DNA from: Solirubrobacteraceae bacterium
GTDB taxonomy: Bacteria; Actinomycetota; Thermoleophilia; Solirubrobacterales; Solirubrobacteraceae
Assembly: GCA_024711025.1 (NCBI GenBank)
Contig: JANJTP010000063.1
Location: 1 to 32,775 of the forward strand
Direction: 5' to 3'
DNA: 32,775 bases
The number at the start of each line of letters is the position of its first letter. The stretch's first letter is position 1. A program made the position numbers and the translations under genes. The notes under the pieces are model-generated. The model was not told the origin of the DNA. It saw nothing but the letters and a program-made list of their open reading frames with translations, and made no database searches. Positions 389 through 32,775 of this stretch are shown piece after piece.

Positions 389-3151
389 ATGACGACTGCA
401 CAGCGCGAACCCATCGGCGTCATCGGCACCGGCTACGTCGGCCTCGTCACCGCGGTCGGCTTCGCCGAGCTCGGCAGCCATGCCTGGTGCGTGGACATCG
501 ACGCCGACAAGATCGCCCGCCTCGAGCGCGGCGAGGTGCCGATCTACGAGCCGGGGCTCGCGGACGCGATCGCCCGCAACCGCGAGCGGCTCCACTTCAC
601 CACCGACCTGGGCGAGGCGCTCGAGCACGCGCGGCTCCTCTTCGTCGCCGTCGGCACGCCGCCGACGCACTCCGGCGACGCCGACCTGAGCGCCGTCCAC
701 GCGGTCGTCGACGCGATGCCGCCGTCGAACCGCCACGCGCTCGTCATGAAGTCGACGGTGCCCGTCGGCACGGGGGCGACGATCAAGCGGCTCTTCGAGG
801 AGCGCGGCAAGGACGGCTTCCGCTACGTCTCCTGCCCGGAGTTCCTCAAGGAGGGCTCCGCGCTCTCGGACTTCCTCGCACCCGATCGGGTCGTCGTCGG
901 CGACGACGGGGACTGGGCCGGCGACGCCGTCGTCGAGCTGTACCGCCCGCTGCTCCGCGCCGAGCACGGCGGGCAGGGTGACGCGGAGCTCGTGCGCACC
1001 GACATCGCGAGCGCCGAGATGGTGAAGCTCGCCTCGAATGCGTTCCTGGCGACGAAGATCAGCTTCATCAACGAGATCGCCAACGTCTGCGAGGAGACCG
1101 GCGCCGACGTGCTGCAGGTCGCGCGCGGGATGGGCCTCGACAATCGGATCGGTCCGAAGTTCCTGCAGGCCGGGATCGGCTTCGGCGGCTCGTGCCTGGC
1201 GGGCGAGGAGACGGTGCTCGCTCGACGCTCAGGCCGCACACGGCTCGTCGAGCTGTCGGCGCTCTACGACGAGATCGAGCGCGAGGGAGCCGACGAGCAC
1301 GACGGCGCGCTGCTGCCCGAGGACCTCGAGGTCCTCTCGTGGGCGCCGGATGCGGGCGAGCCTCTGTTCCTGCCGGTGATGTGCCTCACGCGCCGTGAGC
1401 ACGACGGCGACGTGCTGAGGATCCGCACGAAGATGGGCCGGATGGTCACGTGCACCGCTGACCATCCGTGGTACGTGAGCGACGGCGCCGGGGGCGAAGT
1501 CGGGGTGAAGCTCGCCGACGAGCTGACGAGCGCCGACTGGCTGCCGCTCGCCCGCCATCGCCTCGGCGACTGGGAGGCGCCCCGACTGGCCTCACTGCTG
1601 TCCGCTGTCGGCGTCGAGGGCCTCGACGCCCCGCGGATTCTCGTGCGCCCGCCCCGGCCCCAGCTCGATCGCGCGCTCGCGTTGCCCGCCGAGCGGCGCC
1701 GCGAGGTGTTCGCGTCCAGTGCCGCCCCGACGTCGCGCAGCTACGACGTGCGCCGCAGCGGCGCGCTTCGTCTGCACGAGGCGGCACTCGCGGGGATCGA
1801 CGTGCGTGACTCTCATCTCAGCACGACGAAGAACGGGGCGTGGCCGGCGTCGGAGATCGTCATCGACGAGGCCTTCTGGCGCGTCGTCGGCCTCTACCTG
1901 GCCGAGGGGCACACGGCGGTCGAGGCCGGCGGGCGCGGTACGACGTACCGGGTGTCGTGGAGCTTCCACCCCGCGCGCGAGGAGCACCTGGTTGACGAGG
2001 TCGTGGCGTTCTGGCTGCGTCACGGCGTGCGCGCCCGCGTCGCCACGACGCCGACGACGCGGCAGGTCACCGTCCAATCGCGCCTGCTCGGGACCTGGTG
2101 GCTGCACGTTCTCGGGCTCGGACGGGGCAGCTACGAGCAGCGGATTCCGGATCTCGCCTGGGAGCGCCCGGAGGGCGACCGGTGGGCGATGTTGTCAGGG
2201 CTCTTCGAAGGCGACGGGTCATGGTCGCTCGTGGGTGGTGGGCCGAGCGTCACGATCGAGCTCGGAACGGTCAGCGACGAGCTGGCCGACGGCGTGCTGC
2301 GGATGGTCGGCGATCTCGGGATCGTCGCCTCGCAGCGCATCGGCCGGGCGGCGAAGTCGACCAAGGACACCCACTGGCTGCGGATCTCGGGCGCCGACCA
2401 GGTCGAGCGGGCGATCGCGCTCGTGCCGGAGCGGGACCGTCCCGGTGTTCGAGCCAGCCTCGTGCGCCAGTCGAAGCGCATCGCGCCGACCGGCTTTCGC
2501 GACGGCGGCGACGGCACCGCCTGGGCGCGAGTGGTCGCCGTCGAGCGCGCGGCGCTGGGTGGCAGCGTCTACTCGATGGAAGTCCCGGGGGCTCACTCGT
2601 TCGTGACGACCGGCGGCCTGATCACGTCGAACTGCTTCCCGAAAGACGTCTCGGCGCTCAAGCAGCTCGCCGGCAACAGCGGCTACCACTTCCAGCTCCT
2701 GACGGCGGTCATCGAGGTCAACGAGCTGCAGAAGCGCCGCGTGATGGGCAAGCTGCAGAAGCACCTGGGCTCGCTGGTGGGCAAGCGGATCGCCCTGCTC
2801 GGCCTGGCCTTCAAGCCGAACACGGACGACATGCGCCAGGCCGCCTCGCTCGTGCTAGCCGGCCGCCTGCAGGCGGCCGGGGCGCACGTCGTCGCTTACG
2901 ACCCGATCGCGGAGGACGAGGCGCGCGGGCTGATGCCCGGGGTCGAGTTCGCCGACGGGGCGATGGACGCCCTTCGCGGCGCCGACGCCGCCGTCCTCGT
3001 CACCGAGTGGCAGGAGTTCCGCGATCTCGATCTCGGCCAGGTCGCGCAGGCGCTCGCCGGCGACGTCCTGATCGACGGGCGCAACGCGCTCGACGCCGAC
3101 GCCGCCCGCGCCGCGGGCCTGCGCTACGAGGGCGTCGGTCGGGCGACATAG
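389..3151 (+). CDS. ugd: UDP-glucose 6-dehydrogenase interrupted by an intein
   Basis: Cytosolic enzyme oxidising UDP-glucose to UDP-glucuronate with two NAD+. The 920-residue frame begins with a Rossmann NAD site (GVIGTGYVGLV, about residues 10-20). It continues with the substrate-binding helix around VKLASNAFLA and reaches the active-site segment GFGGS at residue 268. An intein occupies residues 269-748, after which the enzyme resumes with CFPKDVSALK and the C-terminal UDP-binding domain (LLGLAFKPNTDD). Removing the intein leaves 440 residues, the normal length of the family. The catalytic cysteine is Cys749 of the precursor, which becomes residue 269 after splicing. ATG 389 begins close to the Rossmann motif and no better start is visible. 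The next gene starts 5 bases after the stop, implying an operon for activated sugars. UDP-ManNAc dehydrogenase is possible but less likely from the GGSCFPKD motif. Confidence 0.95.
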   Translation: MTTAQREPIGVIGTGYVGLVTAVGFAELGSHAWCVDIDADKIARLERGEVPIYEPGLADAIARNRERLHFTTDLGEALEHARLLFVAVGTPPTHSGDADLSAVHAVVDAMPPSNRHALVMKSTVPVGTGATIKRLFEERGKDGFRYVSCPEFLKEGSALSDFLAPDRVVVGDDGDWAGDAVVELYRPLLRAEHGGQGDAELVRTDIASAEMVKLASNAFLATKISFINEIANVCEETGADVLQVARGMGLDNRIGPKFLQAGIGFGGSCLAGEETVLARRSGRTRLVELSALYDEIEREGADEHDGALLPEDLEVLSWAPDAGEPLFLPVMCLTRREHDGDVLRIRTKMGRMVTCTADHPWYVSDGAGGEVGVKLADELTSADWLPLARHRLGDWEAPRLASLLSAVGVEGLDAPRILVRPPRPQLDRALALPAERRREVFASSAAPTSRSYDVRRSGALRLHEAALAGIDVRDSHLSTTKNGAWPASEIVIDEAFWRVVGLYLAEGHTAVEAGGRGTTYRVSWSFHPAREEHLVDEVVAFWLRHGVRARVATTPTTRQVTVQSRLLGTWWLHVLGLGRGSYEQRIPDLAWERPEGDRWAMLSGLFEGDGSWSLVGGGPSVTIELGTVSDELADGVLRMVGDLGIVASQRIGRAAKSTKDTHWLRISGADQVERAIALVPERDRPGVRASLVRQSKRIAPTGFRDGGDGTAWARVVAVERAALGGSVYSMEVPGAHSFVTTGGLITSNCFPKDVSALKQLAGNSGYHFQLLTAVIEVNELQKRRVMGKLQKHLGSLVGKRIALLGLAFKPNTDDMRQAASLVLAGRLQAAGAHVVAYDPIAEDEARGLMPGVEFADGAMDALRGADAAVLVTEWQEFRDLDLGQVAQALAGDVLIDGRNALDADAARAAGLRYEGVGRAT
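1193..2632 (+). mobile_element. Intein with LAGLIDADG homing endonuclease, inside Ugd
   Basis: In-frame insertion of 480 codons between Ser268 and the catalytic Cys749 of Ugd. Block A begins with Cys269 (CLAGEETVL). Block B contains the TxxH motif TADH at residues 356-359. Two LAGLIDADG-type dodecapeptides are present: GLYLAEG (501-507, acidic residue Glu506) and LSGLFEGDGSW (602-612, acidic residue Asp609), so both endonuclease metal ligands appear intact. The C-terminal splicing region has the block F pattern VYSMEVPGAHSFV and ends GGLITSN before the +1 cysteine. The terminal Asn748 is present, but the usual penultimate histidine is Ser747. Splicing is predicted to be class 1 (Cys1, Asn, Cys+1). 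No frameshift is seen, and base composition matches the host gene, suggesting long residence or transfer among GC-rich hosts. Confidence 0.93.

Positions 3152-5870: not shown

Positions 5871-5874
<4 letters not shown>
5488..5874 (+). CDS. MerR-family transcriptional regulator linked to ahcY
   Basis: A 128-residue DNA-binding regulator. Residues 3-70 form the MerR winged helix-turn-helix: [21 protein letters not shown], then the wing [13 protein letters not shown] and the following helices. The remaining 55 residues are short and lack the cysteine pattern of metal sensors or a recognisable effector domain, so the ligand is unknown. The stop codon overlaps the ahcY start (ATGA, 5871-5874), indicating translational coupling. 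Together with the dyad at 5450-5475 this suggests a dedicated controller of SAH hydrolase expression, possibly sensing a methyl-cycle metabolite. The link is inferred from gene order only. The upstream ATG at 5478 is in another frame and was not used. Confidence 0.88.
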
Positions 5875-7343
<1,469 letters not shown>

Positions 7344-7360: not shown

Positions 7361-7452
7361 GCCGCTGCCGGTGTCCTCGGGGTCGGGATGGCCACGACGG
7401 CCCATCCCGACCCCTGCGTCCTTGGCAGCGACGCCCAGCCGCTCGCGAGGTC
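7361..7452 (+). repeat. Direct repeat copy 1, hairpin-bearing, downstream of ahcY
   Basis: First of two about 91-bp direct copies between the two SAH hydrolase genes, beginning GCCGCTGCCGG and ending CTCGCGAGGTC. It contains an 11-bp inverted repeat, GGTCGGGATGG at 7381-7391 against 7402-7412, which would fold as a strong RNA hairpin 38 bases after the ahcY stop. There is no U-tract. It may be a GC-type terminator or mRNA-stabilising structure. Confidence 0.8.
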
Positions 7453-7467
7453 GCCCGTGGTCCGGCG

Positions 7468-7557
7468 GCCGCTGCCGGCGTTCGTAGGTCGGGATGGCCA
7501 CGAGGCCCATCCCGACCCCTGCGTCCTTGGCAGCGACGCCCAGCCGCTCGCGAGGTC
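7468..7557 (+). repeat. Direct repeat copy 2, hairpin-bearing
   Basis: Second copy of the repeat at 7361-7452, separated from it by 15 bases. The copies are nearly identical from the hairpin (7487-7497 with 7507-7517) to the shared end CTCGCGAGGTC, and diverge slightly at the 5' part. Retention of both stem arms in both copies suggests that the RNA fold matters or that duplication is recent. Confidence 0.8.
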
Positions 7558-7710: not shown

Positions 7711-9012
7711 ATGATGTCGCGCGAGATGCCCTCGCCGACGCCCATGCCGCCGCACGACGTCGCCGATCTCTCGCGCGCCGACGCCGGCGAGGCGCGGATC
7801 GCCTGGGCCACCGCGCAGATGCCGGTGCTCGCACGCCTGCGGGATCGCCTGGCGAAGGCCCGGACGCTCGAAGGGGTGGGCGTCGGGCTCTGCCTCCACG
7901 TCACCGCGGAGACGGCGACGCTCGCGCGGGCGCTCGCCGCGGGGGGCGCCCAGGTCGCGCTCTGCGCCGCCAATCCGCTCTCGACGCAGGACTCGGTGGC
8001 TGCGGCGCTGGTCGTCCACGACGGGCTCGCCGTCCACGCCGTCCACGGAGAGGACCTCGAACGCTACGCCGCGCACGTCGCCGCCCTTGCCGCACGCGAG
8101 CCGGACATCGTCCTCGACGACGGCGCGGACCTCATCGGCCTCCTGCACGACGAGCGTCCCGACGTCGCGCGGGCGCTGATCGGAGCGACCGAGGAGACGA
8201 CCACCGGCCTCTTGCGGCTGCGCGCGATGCAGGCCCAGGGGCGTTTGAGCTGTCCGGTCGTCGCCGTCAACGAGGCACGCGCCGAGCGCGCGTTCAACGA
8301 TCGATACGGCACCGGTCAGTCGACGATCGACGGCATCCTGCGCGCTACGAACACGCTGCTTGCCGGAGCGGTCGTCGTCGTCTTCGGCTACGGCTGGACC
8401 GGCAAGGGGATCGCGCTGCGCGCGCACGGCCTCGGGGCCAGCGTCATCGTCTGCGAGGTCGACCCGATCCGGGCGCTCGAGGCGCGGATGGAGGGCTTCC
8501 AGGTGATGCCCGCGCTCGAGGCCGCCGAGCGCGGCGACATCTTCGTGACGGTGACCGGCGGCAGCGCCGTGCTGAGCGCCGAGCACTTCGAGCGGATGCG
8601 CGACGGGGCGATCCTCGCGAACGCCGGCCACTTCGACGTCGAGATCGACCTCGCCGCGCTCGAGCGCGTGGCATCCGGCCGGCGGGAGGTACGCCCGCTG
8701 GTCGAGGAATACGATCTGGGCGATCGGCGGCTGAACCTGCTGGCGCGGGGGCGCGTCGTCAATCTCGCCGCCGGCGAGGGGCATCCGCCCGCAGTCATGG
8801 ACCTCTCGTTCGCGATGCACGTGCTCGCCGTCGAGCATCTCGTGCGCCGTCGCGGCGAGCTGGGCCCGGGCGTGCATCCCGTCCCGGCGGCGCTCGACCG
8901 CGAGGTCGCCGCGCTGAAGCTCGACGCCCTCGGCGTGCGCATCGACGAGCTGTCGCCCGAGCAGGCGGCCTACGCCAGCGCCTGGGTGCCGCGCCCCGAG
9001 GAAGACGGCTGA
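7711..9012 (+). CDS. Divergent SAH hydrolase paralogue with altered catalytic residues
   Basis: A 433-residue member of the adenosylhomocysteinase family, shorter than AhcY at 5871. It resembles the archaeal/Thermotoga class: it lacks the standard catalytic-domain insertion and the C-terminal KPDHYRY, and has YGTGQS in place of YGCRHS. It keeps the substrate histidine (LHVTAET), LDDGAD, EETTTG, an intact NAD loop (GYGWTGKG), EVDP, GHFDVEID and GHPPAVMD. In the catalytic segment, however, the canonical TKSKFDN reads AERAFND, so the hydride-transfer lysine is Glu and the Asp-Asn pair is inverted to Asn-Asp. NAD binding is therefore likely but ordinary SAH hydrolysis is doubtful. A changed substrate or a regulatory role is possible. 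The start is uncertain: ATGs at 7711, 7714, 7726 and 7741 are all in frame. Confidence 0.85.
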   Translation: MMSREMPSPTPMPPHDVADLSRADAGEARIAWATAQMPVLARLRDRLAKARTLEGVGVGLCLHVTAETATLARALAAGGAQVALCAANPLSTQDSVAAALVVHDGLAVHAVHGEDLERYAAHVAALAAREPDIVLDDGADLIGLLHDERPDVARALIGATEETTTGLLRLRAMQAQGRLSCPVVAVNEARAERAFNDRYGTGQSTIDGILRATNTLLAGAVVVVFGYGWTGKGIALRAHGLGASVIVCEVDPIRALEARMEGFQVMPALEAAERGDIFVTVTGGSAVLSAEHFERMRDGAILANAGHFDVEIDLAALERVASGRREVRPLVEEYDLGDRRLNLLARGRVVNLAAGEGHPPAVMDLSFAMHVLAVEHLVRRRGELGPGVHPVPAALDREVAALKLDALGVRIDELSPEQAAYASAWVPRPEEDG

Positions 9013-15790: not shown

Positions 15791-16690
15791 ATGAGGGGCA
15801 TTTCACACAGGCTCGGCGCGCTGCTCGCGCTGCTGACGCTCGCGGTCTTCGTTGGCGCGGGGTGCGGCGGCAACGACAACGAGACGACGTCGTCCGCGAC
15901 TGAGACCGGCACGACGACCGCCACGGCGATCAAGGTTCCTGACGCGATCAAGTCGAAGGGCACGCTCGTCGTGGCGACCGACGCGAGCTACGCGCCGATG
16001 GAGTTCTTTGCGCCGGACGGCAAGACGATCGAGGGGCTGGACGCCGACTTCGCCAAGGCGATCGCGGCCAAGCTGGGGCTGGAGGCGGACGTCAAGAACG
16101 TCACCTTCGACGCGATCATCCCGGGCCTGGCGGCGCACAAGTACGACGTCGGGATGTCTTCGTTCACCGATACGAAGGAGCGCGAGCAGACCGTCGACTT
16201 CGTGACGTACTTCACCGCCGGCACCTCGTTCTTCACCAAGGCGCAGGGCGGTAAGGACATCACCGGCCTGGCCGACCTCTGTGGCGTCAAGGTCGCCGTC
16301 CAGCGCGGCACGACGATGGCCGACGACGGCAACGCCCAGTCCAAGAAGTGCAAGGCCGACGGCAAGCCCGGCGTCGACGTGCAGGTCTATCCCACCCAGG
16401 ACGGCGCGAACCTCGCGATCGTCTCGGGCCGAGCTCAGATCGGCTTCGCCGACTCCCCGGTCGTCGCCTACCAGATCCAGAAGTCCGAGGGGAAGCTCAA
16501 GGCGACCGGCACGCCGTACGCGGTCGCGCCGTTCGGCATCGCGATCCCCAAGGACAGCGGCCTCGCCGAGCCGATCCTGGAGGCGGTCAAGGCGACGATG
16601 GCCGACGGCGACTACCAGAAGATCCTCGAGAAGTGGGGCGTGCAGGACAGCGCCATCACGAGCCCGGTGATCAACGGGGCGGAGTCCTAG
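15791..16690 (+). CDS. Amino-acid ABC transporter substrate-binding lipoprotein
   Basis: Extracytoplasmic binding protein (SBP_bac_3 family) that captures a polar amino acid or related small solute for the permease encoded next. The 299 residues begin with a lipoprotein signal ending in a VGAGC lipobox (Cys about residue 27) and a Thr/Ser-rich linker. Domain landmarks follow: KSKGTLVVATDASYAPMEF, GLDADFAKAIA, the FDAIIPGL hinge region and VQRGTT. The C-terminal lobe has PFGIAIPKDSGL. ATG 15791 has a strong ribosome site (GGAGGAGAGAGGG). It heads a three-gene operon with permease and ATPase. Two paralogues lie at 24023 and 26674. The substrate cannot be named from sequence. Confidence 0.93.
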   Translation: MRGISHRLGALLALLTLAVFVGAGCGGNDNETTSSATETGTTTATAIKVPDAIKSKGTLVVATDASYAPMEFFAPDGKTIEGLDADFAKAIAAKLGLEADVKNVTFDAIIPGLAAHKYDVGMSSFTDTKEREQTVDFVTYFTAGTSFFTKAQGGKDITGLADLCGVKVAVQRGTTMADDGNAQSKKCKADGKPGVDVQVYPTQDGANLAIVSGRAQIGFADSPVVAYQIQKSEGKLKATGTPYAVAPFGIAIPKDSGLAEPILEAVKATMADGDYQKILEKWGVQDSAITSPVINGAES

Positions 16691-16696
16691 ACGCCG

Positions 16697-17679
16697 ATGC
16701 GGCCCGCTGAGCCCAACGGGGGTTCGATGGCGGCGCCTGCAGGGTCACCGCCCGCCGGGGGTTCACCGGCGGGCGGCCCTCCCGCGGAGGCGATCACCGC
16801 CGTCCCCGTCCGCCATCCGGGGCGGTGGATCGCGGCAGCGATCGTCGTCGCCCTCGCTTTCGTCGTCATCCGCTCGATGGCGACCAACCCGCGCTTCGAG
16901 TGGAGCGTCGTCGGCGACTTCCTCTTCTCGAGCCGCATCATCGACGGTCTGATCGTCACGCTCTACCTGACGGCCATCGCGATGGTGATCGGAATCCTGC
17001 TCGGGATCCTGCTCGCCGTTATGCGGCTCTCGCCGAATCCGATGGTGTCCGGTGCGAGCGGCTTCTACATCTGGCTGTTTCGCGGCACGCCGGTCCTCGT
17101 GCAGCTGCTGTTCTGGAACTTCATCTCGGCCGTCTACCCGACGATCGACTTCGGGCTGGTCTCGTTCGAGGCCAACTCGCTGATCACGCCGCTCGTCGCC
17201 GCGATCCTCGGCCTGGGCCTCAACGAGGGGGCATACATGGCGGAGATCGTGCGAGCCGGGATCCTGTCGGTCGACGAGGGACAGGGCGAGGCCGCGTCGG
17301 CGCTCGGCATGACGCGCCTGCAGACGATGCGGCGGATCGTGCTGCCGCAGGCGATGCGCGTGATCGTGCCGCCGACCGGCAACGAGACGATCTCGATGCT
17401 CAAGACGAGCTCGCTCGCCAGCGTCATCGCGCTGACCGAGCTGCTCTACGCCGGCCAGCTGATCTACTCGGCGAACTACAAGCAGATCCCGCTGCTGATC
17501 ACGGTCAGCATCTGGTATCTCGTCGCGACGACCGTGCTGTCGATCGGCCAGTACTACCTGGAGCGGCGCTTCGGTCGCGGGGCCAAGCGCGAGCAGAAGC
17601 AGACGCCGTTGCAGCGCCTGCGCCGGATCCTCATCCCGACACACGTGCGGCCTGAGGACGTTCAGACCGGAGGAGGCGG

Positions 17680-17683
<4 letters not shown>
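16697..17683 (+). CDS. Amino-acid ABC transporter permease (HisM/GlnP type)
   Basis: Inner-membrane permease of the polar amino-acid uptake family. The 328-residue protein has a low-complexity Pro/Gly/Ala N-terminal extension of about 35 residues. A first transmembrane segment follows ([15 protein letters not shown]), then the conserved [16 protein letters not shown], the segment [15 protein letters not shown], and the EAA loop [23 protein letters not shown] that docks on the ATPase. The gene starts 6 bases after the binding-protein stop and overlaps the ATPase gene by four bases (ATGA). It is probably a homodimer since no second permease is present. The first ATG (16697) is used; ATG 16728 would trim the extension and has no clear advantage. 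Confidence 0.93.
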
Positions 17684-18450
<767 letters not shown>

Positions 18451-19624: not shown

Positions 19625-19723
19625 ATGTTCAAGGTGAGGGAAGAGGGCCTCTGGACGGGTCAGGATCGCTGTCATGCGACCGGCGGGATCGATTGCGCCG
19701 GCGCGCCCGCGTGGCGTGGCTGA
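19625..19723 (+). CDS. Possible 32-codon leader ORF overlapping the carbamoylase start
   Basis: ATG 19625 has a far better ribosome site (AGGAGAGGAG just upstream) than the annotated carbamoylase start, and lies about 80 bases after box 2. It reads 32 codons, beginning MFKVREEGLW, to TGA 19721-19723, in a different frame from the 19674 gene. Three readings are possible. It may be a leader peptide coupling translation, the true start of the carbamoylase followed by a frameshift, or chance. No family is recognised. Confidence 0.35.
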   Translation: MFKVREEGLWTGQDRCHATGGIDCAGAPAWRG

Positions 19724-21071
19724 GCCCGTGCGGGCGGGAACCGTGGCCGGCCTCGACGCTGCGCTGCCGGAGGACGAGGCGGGAGCGAGCCTCGACGCCG
19801 CGCTGCCGGAGGACGAGGCGGGAGCGAGCCTCGACGCCGCCCGCGTCCTGAGCGACCTGGATGAGCTCGCCGCGATCAGCGATCCGGGGCCGGGCGTCAC
19901 GCGAGTGGCATACACCCAGCGCGACGCGGAGGGCCGTGCGTGGTTCGCCCGACGCTGCGACGAGCTCGGGCTGCGGTTCGAGGTCGATTCTCACGGTAAT
20001 TGCTTCGGTTGGTCGCCCGGCTGTGACGAACGTCCGGCTGTCCTGGTCGGCTCGCACCTGGACTCGGTCCGCGAGGCCGGCAGCTACGACGGGGTGCTTG
20101 GAGTCGTCGTCGGCTTCGAGATCGCCCGTCGAGCGCTCACACGGGATCCCGGCGCGCCGGTGGCAGTCGTCTCGTTTGCCTGCGAGGAGTCGACGCGGTT
20201 CGGGATCGGGACGGTCGGCAGCCGACTGCTGTTCGGCGATCTCGACGGCGGAGCGCTCGAGGATCTGCAGGACCTCGACGGCACTCCGCTGCGCGAGGTG
20301 CTCAGCGGAGCGGGCCTCGACCCTGCGGCGTCTTCGACGTTCGACCCTGACGGCATCGCCGCGTTCGTCGAGGTTCACGTCGATCAGGGCAGCGGACTTG
20401 GCGACACCGGCACCGTGGGCGTCGTGCCTGCGATCGCCGGCTGCATCCGCACGCGGATCAGCTGGCGGGGAGAGGCGTCCCACTCCGGCGCGCATGCGCG
20501 CTCCCAGCGTCGAAACGCGCTGCTGGGTGCGGCGCGGTTCATCGTCGCAGCCGAGGATCTCTGGTCCGAGATCGACGCGCGCGGCGAGTCGGCGACGGTC
20601 ACCATCGGGTGGCTGGAGAACCGTCCCAACGCACCGAACTCGGTCGTTGGGACCACGGATGTGGTCGTGGATCTCCGCTCGCCGGACGCGGCGGTCCTGA
20701 CGGCGACCGAGGAGGCGCTCGAGCGGATCGCGCGCGACGTCGGGGAGGAAGGGGGCCTCGAGGTCGATGTGAAGACGCTCGGGCGCATCGAGCCGGTCGA
20801 GATGTCGGCTGCGGTCGTCGGCATCCTCCGGGAGTCCGCTCGCGACGCGGAGGTCGACCACCGCCTCTTCCCGTCGATGGCGGGCCACGACACCGAGGTG
20901 CTGGCTCACCGGATCCCGAGCGCGATGCTGTTCGTCGCCAATCCGGCCGGGGTCAGCCACAACCCGGCCGAGGCGATCAGCAGGGAGAGCCTCGCAGGTG
21001 CGCTGACGATGCTGGACAGGGCGTTGCCGGAGCTTTTCGTAATGCGGGCTACCAGGTTGGAGGGTGAGTGA
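19674..21071 (+). CDS. M20-family N-carbamoyl amino acid hydrolase / allantoate amidohydrolase-like
   Basis: Zinc amidohydrolase of the hydantoinase/carbamoylase family, hydrolysing a ureido group to CO2, ammonia and an amino compound. Metal ligands are visible in GSHLDS (His), SYDGVLG (Asp), CEESTRFG (Glu), HVDQG (His) and the late VSHNP (His). The dimerisation-domain motif GEASHSG and the substrate loop MAGHD are also present. The conserved domain starts about residue 60; the preceding region contains a 13-residue tandem duplication. ATG 19674 lacks a good ribosome site, so the true start may be downstream or involve the leader ORF at 19625. The following cyclic amidohydrolase gene overlaps by GTGA. 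The substrate may be a carbamoyl amino acid, allantoate or a ureido acid; sequence alone does not separate them. Confidence 0.88.
   Translation: MRPAGSIAPARPRGVAEPVRAGTVAGLDAALPEDEAGASLDAALPEDEAGASLDAARVLSDLDELAAISDPGPGVTRVAYTQRDAEGRAWFARRCDELGLRFEVDSHGNCFGWSPGCDERPAVLVGSHLDSVREAGSYDGVLGVVVGFEIARRALTRDPGAPVAVVSFACEESTRFGIGTVGSRLLFGDLDGGALEDLQDLDGTPLREVLSGAGLDPAASSTFDPDGIAAFVEVHVDQGSGLGDTGTVGVVPAIAGCIRTRISWRGEASHSGAHARSQRRNALLGAARFIVAAEDLWSEIDARGESATVTIGWLENRPNAPNSVVGTTDVVVDLRSPDAAVLTATEEALERIARDVGEEGGLEVDVKTLGRIEPVEMSAAVVGILRESARDAEVDHRLFPSMAGHDTEVLAHRIPSAMLFVANPAGVSHNPAEAISRESLAGALTMLDRALPELFVMRATRLEGE
19751..19840 (+). repeat. 39-bp in-frame tandem duplication in the carbamoylase N-terminus
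   Basis: Units at 19751-19789 and 19790-19828 are nearly identical, with a partial third copy to 19840. Each encodes 13 residues including LDAALPEDEAGA. The unit precedes the catalytic domain, so copy number probably does not affect the fold. Confidence 0.9.
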
Positions 21072-23968: not shown

Positions 23969-24022
23969 ACTCCTTCAATGGGGCGCCCATCCCAGGGTGT
24001 AACGAGGAGAGAGAGGGAAGGA

Positions 24023-24964
24023 ATGCAGTGGACTTCCAAGCTTGCGAGCGTGCTGCTCGCGAGCCTGCTGATCGCTGTCATCGCGTCTGGATGCGGCGGT
24101 GGCAGCGACAACTCGAGCTCGGTTGAGGCCGGGGGCTCGACCACCACGTCGACCGCAAGCGCCGGCGCCGATCAGAAGGTCGCCGACGAGGTTCCCGCGG
24201 ACATCAAGTCCAAGGGGGTGCTCAACATCGCCACCGACACCACGTTCCCGCCGTTCGAGTTCATCGGCGCGGACAGCCAGGCGATCGAGGGCATCGATCC
24301 GGACATGATCAAGGCGATCGCCGAGGTCATGGGCCTGAAGGCGGACGTGAAGGGCGTCAAGTTCGACGCCATCATCCCCGGCCTGGCTGCGGGCGAGTAC
24401 GACATCGCGATCTCGTCGTTCGCCGTCTCGGCCGAGCGGATGAAGGTCATCGACATGGTCACGTACCTGGCCGCCGGCAACTCCTATGTGGTCAACGCCA
24501 AGGTCGACGGGACGAACCTCAAGGGGCCCAACGACCTGTGCGGCCTCAGGATCGCCGTCCTGAAGGGCACGACGAACGCCGTCGAAGCCCATCAGCTGGC
24601 CAAGAAGTGCGGCGGTAAGACGAAGGTGCTGGACTTCCCGGAGCAGAGCGCGGCCAACCTGGCCGTCACCTCGGGTCGCGCGGACGTCACCTCGTCGATC
24701 GCCCCGGCGGCCGCGTACTTCGCCGACCGTTCGAACGGGCAGCTGAAGGTCGCCGGCGTGAACTACGACGGCAGCCGGCCGTTCGGCATCGCAGTGCCCA
24801 AGGGGAGCGGTTTGGCGGCTCCGATCCGCGACGCGGTCCAGGTGCTGATCGACAACGGCACCTACGAGAAGATCCTCGCGAAGTGGAAGTCCGAGGCCGC
24901 CGCTCTGAAGAAGGCGCCGGAGGTCAATCCGACCGAGTTCGGTCCGACCGGCGCGAGCTCGTAG
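24023..24964 (+). CDS. Orphan amino-acid ABC substrate-binding lipoprotein 1
   Basis: SBP_bac_3 binding protein of 313 residues, a paralogue of the one at 15791. It has a lipoprotein signal (hydrophobic LASVLLASLLIAVIASGC; Cys about residue 23) and a Ser/Thr-rich linker. DIKSKGVLNIATDTTFPPFEF, GIDPDMIKAIA, FDAIIPGLAAGEYDIAISS and a C-terminal lobe with PFGIAVPKGSGL follow. ATG 24023 is chosen over 23978 because it sits directly after GAGAGAGAGGGA and at the start of the signal peptide. No permease or ATPase follows. It may therefore deliver its ligand to the transporter at 16697-18450, or act as a sensor. It is expressed from box 3. Confidence 0.9.
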   Translation: MQWTSKLASVLLASLLIAVIASGCGGGSDNSSSVEAGGSTTTSTASAGADQKVADEVPADIKSKGVLNIATDTTFPPFEFIGADSQAIEGIDPDMIKAIAEVMGLKADVKGVKFDAIIPGLAAGEYDIAISSFAVSAERMKVIDMVTYLAAGNSYVVNAKVDGTNLKGPNDLCGLRIAVLKGTTNAVEAHQLAKKCGGKTKVLDFPEQSAANLAVTSGRADVTSSIAPAAAYFADRSNGQLKVAGVNYDGSRPFGIAVPKGSGLAAPIRDAVQVLIDNGTYEKILAKWKSEAAALKKAPEVNPTEFGPTGASS

Positions 24965-24983: not shown

Positions 24984-25023
24984 GCCCGTGCCGCCGGCGG
25001 CGATCGTCGCCTGCGGCACGGGC
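24984..25023 (+). terminator. GC hairpin after orphan binding protein 1
   Basis: GCCCGTGCCGC (24984-24994) pairs perfectly over 11 bp with 25013-25023, 20 bases after the stop. There is no U-tract. Confidence 0.65.
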
Positions 25024-25180
25024 CTGTCGCCCCGGCGGCGTGGGTGGTCACCGGCGTGCGTGGTCACCCTGCGTGGGGGGTGATCCGGCGTGGGGGTCAA
25101 CCCGGCACGGGCCTGTCGTCCCGACGGCGTAGGGGTCAACCCGGCACGGGGCTGTCGCCCCGACGGCGTGGGTGGTAACC
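25015..25180 (+). repeat. Three-copy GC-rich repeat in a gene-free gap
   Basis: A 38-bp unit, beginning GGCACGGG and ending near GTGGTCAACC, occurs at 25015-25052, 25104-25141 and 25143-25180, with partial echoes of GGTCACC/GGTCAACC between. The first copy overlaps the right arm of the terminator. The gap from 24965 to 25406 otherwise holds only box 4 and the leader of the next gene. Confidence 0.65.
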
Positions 25181-25267
25181 CGGGAGGGGCGAGGCTCGCC
25201 GACGAGCGAGGCTCACGCCGAAGCACCTGAGTGCCCTTGCGAGATGTCCCCACCATCTTGAACTTGT

Positions 25268-25922: not shown

Positions 25923-26569
25923 AGAGATATGACTGTCTGAAGATCCTGTCGGACGAGATGAGTGGTGACGAGCTGGTGCTCGTCGACATGGGAAACGTCT
26001 CGACCGAGCTGCACGCGGTGAACCACCGAGACGGGAACCTCTACCACCTCCAGATGGGCATCCCGTTCGGGGTCGGCCTCGGGCTGGCGCTCGCCCTGCC
26101 CGATCGCCGGGTGATCGCCTGCCAAGGTGACGGGAGTCTGCTCGAGAATCTCGGCGTCCTCGTCGAGCTCGCTCAGATGCGCCCCGAGAACCTGTTATGC
26201 ATCGTGTGGGACAACGAGTGCTACGAAGCTGTCGGCGGGCACCCGACCGGGAGCGCCATCGCGAGCCTCGCCGGGATCGGGCGGGAGGCCGGAGTGCCGA
26301 GGGCCATGGAGACGACGACGCCGGAGGAGTTCGCGGCGGCCGTCCGTGAGGCGCTGGCCGGCGACGAGCTGAGCTTGATCGTGGCGAAGATCGAGCCCGG
26401 CATCGCCGAAGGGGTGAGGCCGATGACCCTCTACGCCCACGTCGAGGGGACGATTCGCTTCGTGCAATACGTGGAGCGCACGTCCGGTGTCACCATCGCC
26501 CGGCCGGATCAATGGGCGCGAGACGAGATCGGTCATCGAGCTCCCGATGCGCGCGTCGGCGAGGACTGA
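25919..26569 (+). CDS. TPP-dependent decarboxylase beta subunit (ComE/sulfopyruvate decarboxylase-like)
   Basis: A 216-residue partner holding the diphosphate-binding half. The ThDP/Mg motif starts with GDGSLLENLG and ends with the asparagine of WDNECYEAVGG about 30 residues later. The preceding MGIPFGVGLGLALALPDRRVIAC is also typical of ThDP enzymes and ComE. After about residue 180 there is a tail (TLYAHVEGTIRFVQYVERTSG) that is not obvious in ComE as I know it. The gene is translationally coupled to the alpha subunit, and the two would assemble into the active enzyme with ThDP at the interface. It is followed 27 bases later by box 5. Confidence 0.87.
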   Translation: MKRYDCLKILSDEMSGDELVLVDMGNVSTELHAVNHRDGNLYHLQMGIPFGVGLGLALALPDRRVIACQGDGSLLENLGVLVELAQMRPENLLCIVWDNECYEAVGGHPTGSAIASLAGIGREAGVPRAMETTTPEEFAAAVREALAGDELSLIVAKIEPGIAEGVRPMTLYAHVEGTIRFVQYVERTSGVTIARPDQWARDEIGHRAPDARVGED

Positions 26570-26596
26570 GATTATCCCAAAAGAACTTGAAACTCT

Positions 26597-26612
26597 CTTC
26601 ATTATGTTGTAG
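26597..26612 (+). promoter_or_regulatory. Island box 5, promoter of orphan binding protein 2
   Basis: CTTCATTATGTTGTAG, with TTGAAA at 26587-26592 as -35 and TGTAGC at 26608-26613 in the -10 position (15-base spacer). It is 61 bases before ATG 26674. Confidence 0.78.
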
Positions 26613-26673
26613 CGTTCGCCCATGCCCCACAGGGCAAGGTTGGGTCAAGCGCCAACGAGGAGAGGGAGTGGAG

Positions 26674-27594
26674 ATGTCGCGAGTTCTCAGGTTCGCGGCG
26701 GTTTTGTTGTCGGTTGCGCTGATCGCGCCGGCGGCTGCGCTGGTCGGATGCGGCGGCGACGAGTCGAGCGGTGGCTCGGACTCGGCGGCCGCCGAGCATC
26801 CGGGCTTCAAGAAGGAGATCGCCGACACGCTGCCGGAGGCGATCAAGTCAAAGGGGACGCTCATCGCGGCGACCGACGCCACGTTCCCGCCGCTCGAGTT
26901 CATGGACGCGGACGGCGAGACGATCACGGGAGTCGACCCTGAGCTGATCACTGCGATCGGCAATGTCCTGGGCCTCGAGGTGAAGGTCGTCAACGCAAAG
27001 TTCGACAGCATCCTTCCGGGGCTGCAGGCGGGCAATTACGACGTGGCGATCTCGTGGTTCAACGACCGCAAGGACCGCGAGGAGGTCGTCGACATGGTCG
27101 TCTACGGCCAGAGCGGGAACACCTACTACGTCAACGCGGACGTCGATCCGTCGACGATCAGCAAGCCCGAGGATCTGTGTGACAAGCGGTACGCCGTGAT
27201 GAAGGGCAGCAGCCAGGCGGCTGAGGCCGCCGAGCAGAAGAAGGCCTGCGGCGGCAAGCTCGAGGTGATGGAGTTCCCCGACCAGAACGCGATCAACCTG
27301 GCGCTCGCCGCCGGGCGGGCCGACATCGCCAACGCCGGCACGCCGGTTGCGCTGTACGCGATGTCCAAGGCCAGTGGCCGTCTCGCGCTGGTCGACGGAC
27401 TCGCCGAACACCCGCATCCCGTGGGCATCGCCGTACCGAAGGGCGGTGGGCTCGCCCAGCCGATCCTCGACGCGCTCAAGGCGCTGATGGCCGACGGCAC
27501 GTACCAGGAGATCTTCAAGAAGTACGGGATCGACGCCAAGTCGGCGATCACCGACCCCGTCATCAACGGGGCACCGGACGAGCCGGCCGAGTAG
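26674..27594 (+). CDS. Orphan amino-acid ABC substrate-binding lipoprotein 2
   Basis: Third SBP_bac_3 paralogue, 306 residues. ATG 26674 follows GAGGAGAGGGAG and opens a lipoprotein signal ending ALVGC (Cys about residue 26). Domain landmarks are AIKSKGTLIAATDATFPPLEF, GVDPELITAIG, FDSILPGLQAGNYDVAISW and the C-terminal lobe with PVGIAVPKGGGL. It shares more of its spelling with the other two binding proteins than expected for unrelated members, indicating local duplication. It has no permease or ATPase partner next to it. The same frame is open upstream to 26512, but that region is the promoter. Confidence 0.9.
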   Translation: MSRVLRFAAVLLSVALIAPAAALVGCGGDESSGGSDSAAAEHPGFKKEIADTLPEAIKSKGTLIAATDATFPPLEFMDADGETITGVDPELITAIGNVLGLEVKVVNAKFDSILPGLQAGNYDVAISWFNDRKDREEVVDMVVYGQSGNTYYVNADVDPSTISKPEDLCDKRYAVMKGSSQAAEAAEQKKACGGKLEVMEFPDQNAINLALAAGRADIANAGTPVALYAMSKASGRLALVDGLAEHPHPVGIAVPKGGGLAQPILDALKALMADGTYQEIFKKYGIDAKSAITDPVINGAPDEPAE

Positions 27595-29367: not shown

Positions 29368-30258
29368 ATGAAGCCGGCGACTTTCGAATACATGCGACCC
29401 GAGACGACCCGCGGCGCGCTCGACGCGCTGGCGAGTCACGGTGACGAGGCGCGCGTGCTCGCCGGGGGACAGAGCCTCGTGCCGATGATGAACCTGCGTC
29501 TCGCCCGCCCGGCCGTGCTCGTCGACATCACCCATGTGCAGGAGCTACGAGAGCTGCGCGTCTGCGCCGATGCGGTCACTATCGGCGCCGGCGTGAGGCA
29601 GCTCGCCGTGGAGCGATCCGCTGACGTCGCGGCGGCGCTGCCGATCCTGCGCCAAGGGCTCGCGTACGTCGGCCACGCGCCGATCCGCAGCCGCGGCACG
29701 GTGTGCGGGAGCGTCGCCCATGCGGATCCGCTCGCCGAGCTTCCCGCCATCGTGCTCGCGCTCGACGGCGTGATGGTTGCGGCCGGCCCGGCGGGCCGGC
29801 GCGAGATCGCCGCGGCGGACTTCTTTCGGAGCTATTACACGACGGCTCTGGAGCCGGACGAGCTGCTGGCCGAGATCCGCATCCCGCGGCCGCCCGAGCG
29901 CTGGGGATCGGCGTTCCTCGAGCTCGCCCGTCGGCACGGCGACTTCGCGCTGGCGGGAGTGGCTGCGCTCGTCGACGTCGACGACGATCGCCGGATCCGC
30001 GGCGTTCGGCTGGCGCTGAGCGGGGTGGCGGAGGCGCCGGTCCGCGCCGTGGAGGCGGAGGGAGCGCTCAGCGGGGCCACGCTCGACGACGGGCAGGCCC
30101 TCCGCGCGGCCGCCGACGCGGCGATTCGCACCATCGACCCGATGTCGGACGTCCACGCGACCAGCGAGTTCCGTCGCGAGGTCGCCGGCGTCCTCGTGCG
30201 TCGAGCGATCGTGCTCGCGGGCGAGCGATCGATCGAGCGAGCGAAGTCCGTCCGATGA
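29368..30258 (+). CDS. Molybdenum hydroxylase FAD subunit (CoxM/XdhB-like)
   Basis: Medium subunit of a xanthine dehydrogenase/CO dehydrogenase/aldehyde oxidase-type enzyme, carrying FAD that passes electrons from the iron-sulfur subunit. The 296 residues contain the FAD pyrophosphate motif AGGQSLVPMMNLRLARP (about residues 32-48). The second FAD motif RGTVCGSVAHADPLAELP (about 110-127) follows, then FFRSYYTTALEPDELLAEIRIP, and the C-terminal domain with the DVHATSEFRREVAG segment. The start ATG 29368 opens with the usual KPATFEYMRP. Its stop overlaps the next start (ATGA 30255-30258). The Mo-binding large subunit would be expected after the small subunit but is lost at the junction. The substrate may be a purine, aldehyde or other N-heterocycle. 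Confidence 0.92.
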   Translation: MKPATFEYMRPETTRGALDALASHGDEARVLAGGQSLVPMMNLRLARPAVLVDITHVQELRELRVCADAVTIGAGVRQLAVERSADVAAALPILRQGLAYVGHAPIRSRGTVCGSVAHADPLAELPAIVLALDGVMVAAGPAGRREIAAADFFRSYYTTALEPDELLAEIRIPRPPERWGSAFLELARRHGDFALAGVAALVDVDDDRRIRGVRLALSGVAEAPVRAVEAEGALSGATLDDGQALRAAADAAIRTIDPMSDVHATSEFRREVAGVLVRRAIVLAGERSIERAKSVR

Positions 30259-30397
30259 GCGACCCGCGTCCGGCCGGCCATCCTCCCCCTCCCGCCGGGA
30301 CGATTGTGGCAAGCGGGCCGACGCTCGTCACGCTGCGCGTCAACGGCGAGGTCCGTCGCGGGCTCGCCGATCCGCGCATGCTGCTGTCCGACTTCCT
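30255..30397 (+). CDS. Molybdenum hydroxylase 2Fe-2S subunit, truncated at the junction
   Basis: The first about 47 residues of a CoxS/XdhC-like small subunit. TLVTLRVNGEVRRGLADPRMLLSDFL is the family N-terminus, in which a segment with Gly-Cys and clustered cysteines binding the first 2Fe-2S centre should follow within about 20 residues. Instead the sequence changes at about 30397 into an unrelated sulfotransferase, so no cysteine ligand is present. The ATGA overlap with the FAD subunit is normal for the operon. The N-terminal part is genuine; the frame continuing to 30821 is a join artefact or a rearrangement. Confidence 0.85.
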
Positions 30398-30402
30398 AAC
30401 CA
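30393..30402. other. Composition break, probable assembly join
   Basis: GC-rich sequence ends and AT-richer sequence begins within ACTTCCTAAC, inside the small-subunit reading frame. Left and right genes belong to unrelated functions and apparently different phyla. No insertion sequence, attachment site, tRNA or repeat marks the boundary. Confidence 0.8.
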
Positions 30403-30821
30403 TCTCATGGATCAATTACGCACGCCGTCAATTCACCGACCCCGGTCATGGCTATTTCTACATCGAAGAAATCCTGGATATGACGCAGCACTGGTATCGC
30501 TACCCGCTGCAATATCTGGATGCGCATCCCTCTCCCCGTTACCTGATTCTTAACTACGACGATTTGATCCTGCGCCCGGAGAGTGTGATTCGCGGTTTCT
30601 ATGAGCAGTTTGGCTATCCCGACAAGCCCGGACTGCCCATCATCATTGACCAGGCCGTCAAAGAAACGCTGGCGTTTCGGAGTGACCATTCCTATTCCCT
30701 TGAACGAATGGGGTTCACCCGCGAACAGATCGTGGAAATTTACAAAGACATCTTCGAACGCTTCAATTTTGAAACCCGCGAAGACCTGCTCCCCATTGAG
30801 CGTATTGAACTGGATAGATAA
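30398..30821 (+). CDS. C-terminal fragment of a sulfotransferase-family protein
   Basis: About 140 residues, in frame by chance with the truncated 2Fe-2S subunit. The segments FYIEEILDMTQHWYRY, LILNYDDLILRPESVIRGFYEQFGYP and the C-terminal RSDHSYSLERMGF match the second half of PAPS-dependent sulfotransferases, where a tyrosine/aspartate loop before a helix is typical. The PAPS-binding P-loop region is missing because the 5' half lies beyond the join. Codon use is of the low-GC type. It ends at TAA 30819-30821, directly before a U-tract terminator. Confidence 0.65.
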
Positions 30822-30868
30822 AGAGAATCAAAAAGAGCGTCCAGCAAGGACGCTCTTTTTGATTCTCT
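30822..30868. terminator. Perfect bidirectional terminator between the sulfotransferase and lgt
   Basis: A 21-bp perfect inverted repeat (30822-30842 with 30848-30868) around loop AGCAA, with A-tract and T-tract edges. It serves both convergent genes and overlaps the lgt stop codon. Confidence 0.93.
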
Positions 30869-31922
30869 ATTCTTCGGTCTTACGCCTTTTTACAGGAGTT
30901 TTCTTCACGGCAGTTTTCTTCGCTGCTGTTTTTGTTGACGCAGGTTTCTTTGCGGCGGATGTTTTCCGCACAGGCTTTGCAACCGCTTCCTCTTCCACTT
31001 CATCCTCTACTTCAACAATAGCCTTCACACGAGCAGGGCGCGGACGTGGAGCCTTTTCGACTTTCTTGAGTTGATACTCTTCTGCCCAACCTTCCGCAGC
31101 GGCAAGTTGAATTTTCCCGTAACGGATGAGCAGCATGACCAAACCAGCCATTGCCATTAGGAAGGAAACGGTCATAGTGTAGGTGATAAAGGTCTCACCG
31201 ATACGTGCCTGATCGGGTCGGAAGAATTCGATGAATGTGCGGGAAAGTCCCGCCAGCATGAGCCATGCGCTGAAAATCGTCCCCGCCTTCAACTGCTCTT
31301 CATAACGGCGGGAGAGCCAGAGCAGGAAAAGCACGATCAACACATTCAGGATCATTTCGTAGGCGAAGGTCGGGTGAAACCGAGTCGTCTCCACCGGGAA
31401 CAGGCTCACAGGGAATTGAGCGAGGCGATGATTCGCCGCGATGGGAATGCCCCACGGCAGAGTCGTCGGCGGGCCGTACAATTCCTGATTGATGAAATTT
31501 CCAAGCCGCCCAAACGCCTGTCCGAGCAATGCGGCAGGGGCAACAGCATCCAAAAACAGCCAGGTGTCATAGCCGTTCCGTTTTAAGAAGATCACCAGCG
31601 CAATGCCGCCAAAAAGCAAACCGCCAAAAATATGCAAACCAGCGATCGGCGGGCGGATGATGGAGAGGGGGTCTTGAATATAGGATTGATTGCCAGCCAG
31701 GGTGCTGTTCGCTACATACCATAAACGCGCGCCCAAAATACCAACGATCACCGCCCATACCATCGCATCGACCAGTACTTCGCTATTCTCACCACGGCGG
31801 CGGACTTCGCGCTCGGCGATCCATGCGCCGATGAGAACACCGCTCATTACGATCACGCCATACCATGTTACAGTGATCGGCCAGATGAACAATTTAAATG
31901 TGAAAATTACAGGGTCTATCAT
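30867..31922 (-). CDS. lgt: Prolipoprotein diacylglyceryl transferase with lysine-rich tail
   Basis: Inner-membrane enzyme that moves diacylglycerol from phosphatidylglycerol to the lipobox cysteine of prolipoproteins. The first about 270 of 351 residues hold seven membrane segments, with the Lgt signature GRLGNFINQELYG, the conserved histidine region LHIFGGLLFGG and HPTFAYE. The last about 75 residues are an unusual Lys/Ala/Pro/Thr tail, preceded by an acidic stretch (VEVEDEVEEE), resembling histone H1-like tails. Such a tail is not needed for catalysis and may bind nucleic acid or phospholipid headgroups. ATG 31922 has AGAGGAA upstream. The gene belongs to the low-GC segment. Confidence 0.95.
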   Translation of the reverse strand: MIDPVIFTFKLFIWPITVTWYGVIVMSGVLIGAWIAEREVRRRGENSEVLVDAMVWAVIVGILGARLWYVANSTLAGNQSYIQDPLSIIRPPIAGLHIFGGLLFGGIALVIFLKRNGYDTWLFLDAVAPAALLGQAFGRLGNFINQELYGPPTTLPWGIPIAANHRLAQFPVSLFPVETTRFHPTFAYEMILNVLIVLFLLWLSRRYEEQLKAGTIFSAWLMLAGLSRTFIEFFRPDQARIGETFITYTMTVSFLMAMAGLVMLLIRYGKIQLAAAEGWAEEYQLKKVEKAPRPRPARVKAIVEVEDEVEEEAVAKPVRKTSAAKKPASTKTAAKKTAVKKTPVKRRKTEE

Positions 31923-31948
31923 GATTTCCTCTGAGTTATTTTTCCGCG

Positions 31949-31954
31949 ATTATA
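31949..31954 (-). promoter_or_regulatory. -10 element of lgt
   Basis: TATAAT on the minus strand, 27 bases before the lgt ATG. TTATTG 15 bases further upstream could be a weak -35. The 101-base intergenic space is shared with the divergent permease gene. Confidence 0.5.
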
Positions 31955-32023
31955 TCACCCGTCGAATTTCAATAAGAAAAGTCATGTTATCATCCAATCA
32001 CTACACTCCCGGGAGAACCTATA

Positions 32024-32775
32024 ATGTTCATGTTTGTTCTGCGCCGCCTGATCGGAATGACGATTCTCCTCATCGGCGTCAACTTTCTTACATTTGCATA
32101 TGCCCATTATGGGCGTTTCGAACAACTTAAACAAAACCCCATCTTTGCACAGGAAGGCAAGGCGGAGCCAGTCCTACCTTTTTATAAGGAATATATCGAT
32201 GGCTTTATAAACGGCAGCCCGATCCCCATTCCAATGATGACAGGAGTGGATGTATGGGAACTGGTGAGTCTGGCAACAAAGAACAGCCTCGGCTTGCTGG
32301 GACTTGCATTTTTCACCAGTCTGCTGGTCGGGCTATTGATTGGTATCAGCGCTGTAAAAGTAGAGCCACCCCGCGTGGCAAAATGGCTCATCCCCGTTTC
32401 CACTATCAGCCTTGCCATGCCGGGCTTTTATGTCGGCGCAATGCTGATCACAATTTCCATTTACTATCTGCTCTATACACCCGGGACACAGGCGAGTTTG
32501 CCCTTCCCATTAGGCGGCTTCGGCTGGGATGCACACCTCGTTTTCCCAGTCATCGCTCTTTCATTTCGCCCTTCCATTCAGATCGCCCAAACAACAGCCA
32601 CCCTGCTTGTAGAGGAATTTTCACACACCTATGTGACCGTTGCACGCAGTTTGGGACATTCCTGGCGACTCATCAAATATAAGACCGCCCTGCGGAATAT
32701 TTATGTGCCGCTGGCACAGGTGATTGCCACCTCTCTCAGCGTGATGATCGGAGAATTGATCCTGCTTGAATGGCT
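32024..32775 (+). CDS. ABC transporter permease, OppB/DppB type (partial, runs off the window)
   Basis: Inner-membrane permease of the peptide/nickel ABC family; 250 residues are visible and the frame is open at the window end. It starts FVLRRLIGMTILLIGVNFLTF (first membrane segment, typical of OppB). After an extracytoplasmic loop come several hydrophobic segments (SLGLLGLAFFTSLLVGLLIGI). SLAMPGFYVGAML and the coupling loop EEFSHTYVTVARSLGHSWRLIKYKTALRN follow. ATG 32024 has GGGAGA at 32011-32016; ATG 32030 is an alternative. It is divergent from lgt. The ligand is unknown, and partner OppC, ATPases and binding protein would lie beyond the window. Confidence 0.87.
   Translation, partial: MFMFVLRRLIGMTILLIGVNFLTFAYAHYGRFEQLKQNPIFAQEGKAEPVLPFYKEYIDGFINGSPIPIPMMTGVDVWELVSLATKNSLGLLGLAFFTSLLVGLLIGISAVKVEPPRVAKWLIPVSTISLAMPGFYVGAMLITISIYYLLYTPGTQASLPFPLGGFGWDAHLVFPVIALSFRPSIQIAQTTATLLVEEFSHTYVTVARSLGHSWRLIKYKTALRNIYVPLAQVIATSLSVMIGELILLEW

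Follow-up and report, generated by a model that had tools for sequence, protein, structure and literature searches.

A single open frame across two unrelated genes

Does the open frame at 30255-30821 encode a novel fusion of a [2Fe-2S] subunit with a sulfotransferase, or was it created when the contig was assembled? The window, which is the whole stretch of 32,775 nucleotides analysed here, is the entire contig C71 of the 72-contig draft genome G000 (3.1 Mb; completeness 97.28%, contamination 0.24%), likely a metagenome-assembled genome. The open-reading-frame list gives the frame as a single one of 188 amino acids from its ATG, nested in a longer frame that opens at 29703. A CoxS-type gene contributes the first 143 bases and a sulfotransferase gene another 423, and a Pfam search with the whole frame matched no family. 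An earlier note had placed a contig junction inside this gene near 30397 and had read it as a misassembly, not a novel fusion. The position is now confirmed to the base by the end of CoxS identity and the start of Anaerolineales homology, and the misassembly is supported by the probable continuation of the gene on another contig (C28) and by the Anaerolineales tail. The frame is almost certainly an assembly artefact, the last 2378 bases of C71 being foreign and no fusion protein being encoded. The features on the left side and at the joint are as follows.

29368-30258, forward strand: intact CoxM-type FAD subunit, which belongs to the contig proper (PF00941, E 5e-45; PF03450, E 7e-23)
30112-30397, forward strand: overlap with the start of C28 (its bases 1-286), 93% identity (exact over the first 96 bases, 20 differences over the next 116, exact again over the last 74 up to the junction)
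30255-30397, forward strand: first 47 codons of a CoxS-type [2Fe-2S] subunit, broken off before the cysteine motifs (aligns with the intact CoxS of C28)
30397-30398, no strand: junction, almost certainly chimeric (CoxS identity ends at 30397; Anaerolineales alignment from 30399, or from 30398 in a few genomes)

Where homology and composition change

Identity of the CoxS-type gene to C28 runs to 30397, beyond which it drops to 16-38% per 50 bases, a random level. Homology to Anaerolineales starts at 30399, the second base of the tail, and the alignments that cover the sulfotransferase begin at this base in nearly all Anaerolineales genomes. A likelihood change point of composition lies at 30377-30392. 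GC content and codon use, reported earlier to change and to stay changed up to the window end, indeed do so (GC 0.706 before the junction vs 0.506 after; GC3 0.83-0.96 in sampled genes before vs 0.56-0.62 after). The comparison of tetranucleotide profiles proposed in the earlier note likewise shows that the two sides disagree, with a correlation of 0.19 between the tail and the rest of the window vs 0.82-0.94 for same-length pieces of the rest. The observed switch of composition and homology is far beyond chance.

A tRNA search at the junction found none, in agreement with what had been read from the letters, and no long repeat was found there. At the joint (marked by a slash), the relatives read CTGCCCTC/CACCATCTC or CCTTC/AAC, vs GACTTCCT/AACCATCTC in the window; judged against these relatives and not against the donor itself, microhomology appears to be 0-1 base. 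A repeat-induced join through a shared k-mer was also considered, and the 0-1 base in common speaks against it. As the two sides show no common sequence where they meet, the join seems more likely to come from a chimeric read or molecule than from the collapse of a repeat. The joined sequence was not found in 60 relatives, nor the exact junction in viral contigs, nor any DNA similar to the frame in plasmids.

The CoxS-type gene and its probable continuation on C28

Only 47 codons of the [2Fe-2S] subunit are left in the window, so that it does end before its cysteine-rich segment as first described. The fragment agrees with the CoxS-type small subunits of molybdenum hydroxylases (PF00111 and PF01799) in these codons and in its position directly 3' of CoxM, whereas the Fe-S binding residues are all absent from it and present on C28; in the window frame neither the Fer2 nor the Fer2_2 domain, cysteines included, is found. 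Nor does the window hold a Mo-binding large subunit, its share of the operon being the FAD subunit.

C28, another contig of G000 (12949 bases), encodes at 144-701 the complete CoxS of 185 amino acids (Fer2_2, 4.7e-29; Fer2, 2.4e-7) and at 702-3104, directly 3' of it, a Mo-binding large subunit of 800 amino acids, the very gene that the earlier note had advised looking for on another contig. An ABC permease and an ATPase follow, as read from translations. C71 has the FAD subunit without the Fe-S domain of CoxS beside it, and C28 has CoxS and the large subunit with CoxM present only as its last 47 codons; the two fit as halves of one operon. CoxS lies directly 3' of CoxM in several other operons of G000 and in most relatives examined, with gene order varying. 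Across the whole genome, family searches returned 12 FAD subunits and 13 large subunits, and Fer2_2 was matched 13 times, in one case partially; the 12 FAD and 13 large subunits are a rich set for a 3.1 Mb genome.

The exact blocks make up 170 of the 286 bases of the overlap, including the 74 before the junction, and composition correlates at 0.98 between C28 and C71. Because of these exact blocks and the equal composition, C28 is probably a variant of the same locus and not a paralogue; the 20 differences in 116 bases mark it as a variant of the locus and not an identical continuation.

The designation CoxS needs some care. The segment of the C28 large subunit that corresponds to the AYXCSFR motif of form I CO dehydrogenase reads AYRGVGM. 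The name thus stands for a CoxS-type [2Fe-2S] subunit of a molybdenum hydroxylase, and CO oxidation is not to be inferred. Neighbouring genes, as read from translations, encode a cyclic amidohydrolase, an N-carbamoyl hydrolase-like protein, an aminotransferase and an amino-acid transporter, which suggests catabolism of a nitrogen compound.

The Anaerolineales tail

From its sequence matches, the low-GC side is now placed in the Anaerolineales (Chloroflexota); the label actinobacterial for the high-GC side is that of the earlier note. It holds the following features.

30398-32775, no strand: foreign tail as a whole, 2378 bases, to be trimmed (composition, homology, no second copy)
30399-30821, forward strand: last 140 codons of a sulfotransferase that lacks about 255 residues at its N-terminus (up to 87% amino acid identity to Anaerolineales; intact relatives about 395 amino acids)
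30822-30868, no strand: palindromic hairpin resembling a bidirectional terminator, where the sulfotransferase and lgt genes converge (opposite-strand self-match 89%; relatives have similar palindromes there)
30867-31922, reverse strand: prolipoprotein diacylglyceryl transferase (Lgt) of Anaerolineales type (PF01790, E 2e-61)
32024-32773, forward strand: ABC transporter permease, truncated where the contig ends (PF00528; 64% amino acid identity to L010)

The claim that an unrelated sulfotransferase C-terminus continues in frame is upheld by the 140 codons and their close Anaerolineales matches. The window shares with the Anaerolineales sulfotransferase of about 395 amino acids its C-terminal 140 residues, the convergent order with lgt and the terminator-like palindrome, whereas the N-terminal 255 residues are absent, among them the GNLRSGSTFLHRL segment of intact relatives. 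A complete Sulfotransfer_1 or Sulfotransfer_3 domain with its N-terminal PAPS-binding segment is not present in the window, and the part that remains matches Sulfotransfer_1 weakly, under the Pfam cut-off. In Anaerolineales relatives the sulfotransferase gene runs unbroken across the junction point, and the order and orientation of sulfotransferase, hairpin and convergent lgt are those of the window; in one Anaerolineales relative (L010) the permease is there too, with order and orientation conserved. The relatives of Lgt among the matches listed are almost all metagenome-assembled genomes of Anaerolineales or other Chloroflexota, the best at 76% amino acid identity.

Matches to the tail were found in 52 of the 57 genomes of one Anaerolineales group. 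None of these 57 genomes, the closest group, is the exact donor; larger pieces match at 65-81%, the best matches being 78-81% over parts. Within G000 there is no second copy of 30398-32775, the N-terminus of the sulfotransferase was not found, and neither was the rest of the permease outside the tail, the other matches being general permeases at 22-26% identity. G000 carries two other Lgt genes.

Alternative explanations and the preferred account

An assembly chimera is the simplest account, given that both genes break at a single base, where one lineage gives way to another, and that the left gene continues intact on another contig. Homology and composition switch sharply between the two lineages within the contig, and what is probably the true continuation lies elsewhere in the assembly, on C28 as a variant of the same locus. 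A genuine gene for a CoxS/sulfotransferase hybrid protein would explain why the frame is open across the joint, but a random join of two coding pieces is in frame one third of the time, and such a protein would consist of a CoxS part without any cysteine motif and a sulfotransferase part without the conserved N-terminal GNLRSGSTFLHRL segment, unmatched in Pfam as a whole and absent from the relatives on either side; this reading can for practical purposes be set aside. Somewhat less remote, yet still very unlikely, is a real and recent transfer between phyla, in which one strain would carry an Anaerolineales insertion that breaks coxS and of which one edge is seen. An insertion-free variant beside C71, such as C28, is what a polymorphic insertion would be expected to leave. 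Nevertheless, a single edge is visible, as the block extends to the contig end; it begins and ends inside genes, and the remaining parts of both broken tail genes were not found elsewhere in G000. The joint lacks a tRNA or long repeat, 2.4 kb of foreign composition are unamended, and the join is absent from all relatives examined. Resident DNA on both sides, or a signature of integration, as a horizontally acquired island would show, was not found.

A different doubt concerns the left side alone, namely that C71 and C28 come from two related organisms or represent paralogous operons, so that C28 would not continue this locus while the tail would still be foreign. An overlap at 93% and not 100% identity is in its favour, but the share of the overlap that lies in two exact blocks, one of them ending at the junction, and the near-equal composition of the contigs argue against it, and we consider it improbable, though less so than the transfer.

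Under the preferred account, an assembly chimera, the true sequence past 30397 would continue through CoxS to the Mo-binding large subunit, as on C28. The assembly would instead have joined it mid-gene, in frame by chance, to the 3' part of a sulfotransferase gene from Anaerolineales and would then have followed the Anaerolineales genome up to the contig end. Shortly before the joint, at 30208-30323, two variants of the locus exist, which may have made the assembly fragile there; the probable cause is a chimeric read or library molecule by which the contig end was extended where these population variants differ.

Other observations on the two contigs

Several features elsewhere on the contigs are recorded here in their own right. 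The UDP-glucose 6-dehydrogenase gene at 389-3151 (forward strand, 920 amino acids) contains an intein that carries a LAGLIDADG domain and is situated, from the translation, directly before the cysteine of GFGGSCFPKD (GFGGS / intein / CFPKD). An adenosylhomocysteinase gene (5871-7343, forward strand) is followed by a shorter, divergent adenosylhomocysteinase-like gene of 433 amino acids (7711-9012, forward strand), and a 54-base exact direct repeat with copies 105 bases apart lies between them (7399-7557). Tandem repeats with a unit of 39 bases occur in three copies in an apparently intergenic stretch (25014-25202) and, in frame, in two copies (97%) at 19750-19827, at the start of an amidohydrolase-like gene (19674-21071). 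On C28, a NadC-like gene (L008:8726-9871) has an in-frame N-terminal tandem repeat of MSRMLDEADRRTGG-like units. Three paralogous solute-binding proteins are encoded at 15791-18450, 23978-24964 and 26512-27594, one of them together with a permease and ATPase of its own; at the DNA level, this permease/ATPase stretch has 76% identity to the pair of C28.

Implications for the genome and its annotation

Chimeric contigs produced by misassembly are a known, relatively rare class of error in metagenome-assembled genomes, and non-redundant contamination is picked up less readily by marker-gene methods (PMC8201837). C71 resembles the chimeric contigs addressed by GUNC (PMC8201837) in holding fragments of two lineages in one contig of a genome that passes marker-gene checks, and differs from them in that its joint is known to the base and the sequence that probably continues the left side is located, on C28. 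A genome at 97.28% completeness and 0.24% contamination can thus still hold a foreign contig end, and the conclusion would be unchanged if the source of G000 were a contaminated isolate draft. C71 should be cut at 30397, and the frame 30255-30821 should stay out of databases as a fusion protein. The tail gives G000 a third, foreign lgt gene, by which annotation of this organism could be misled.
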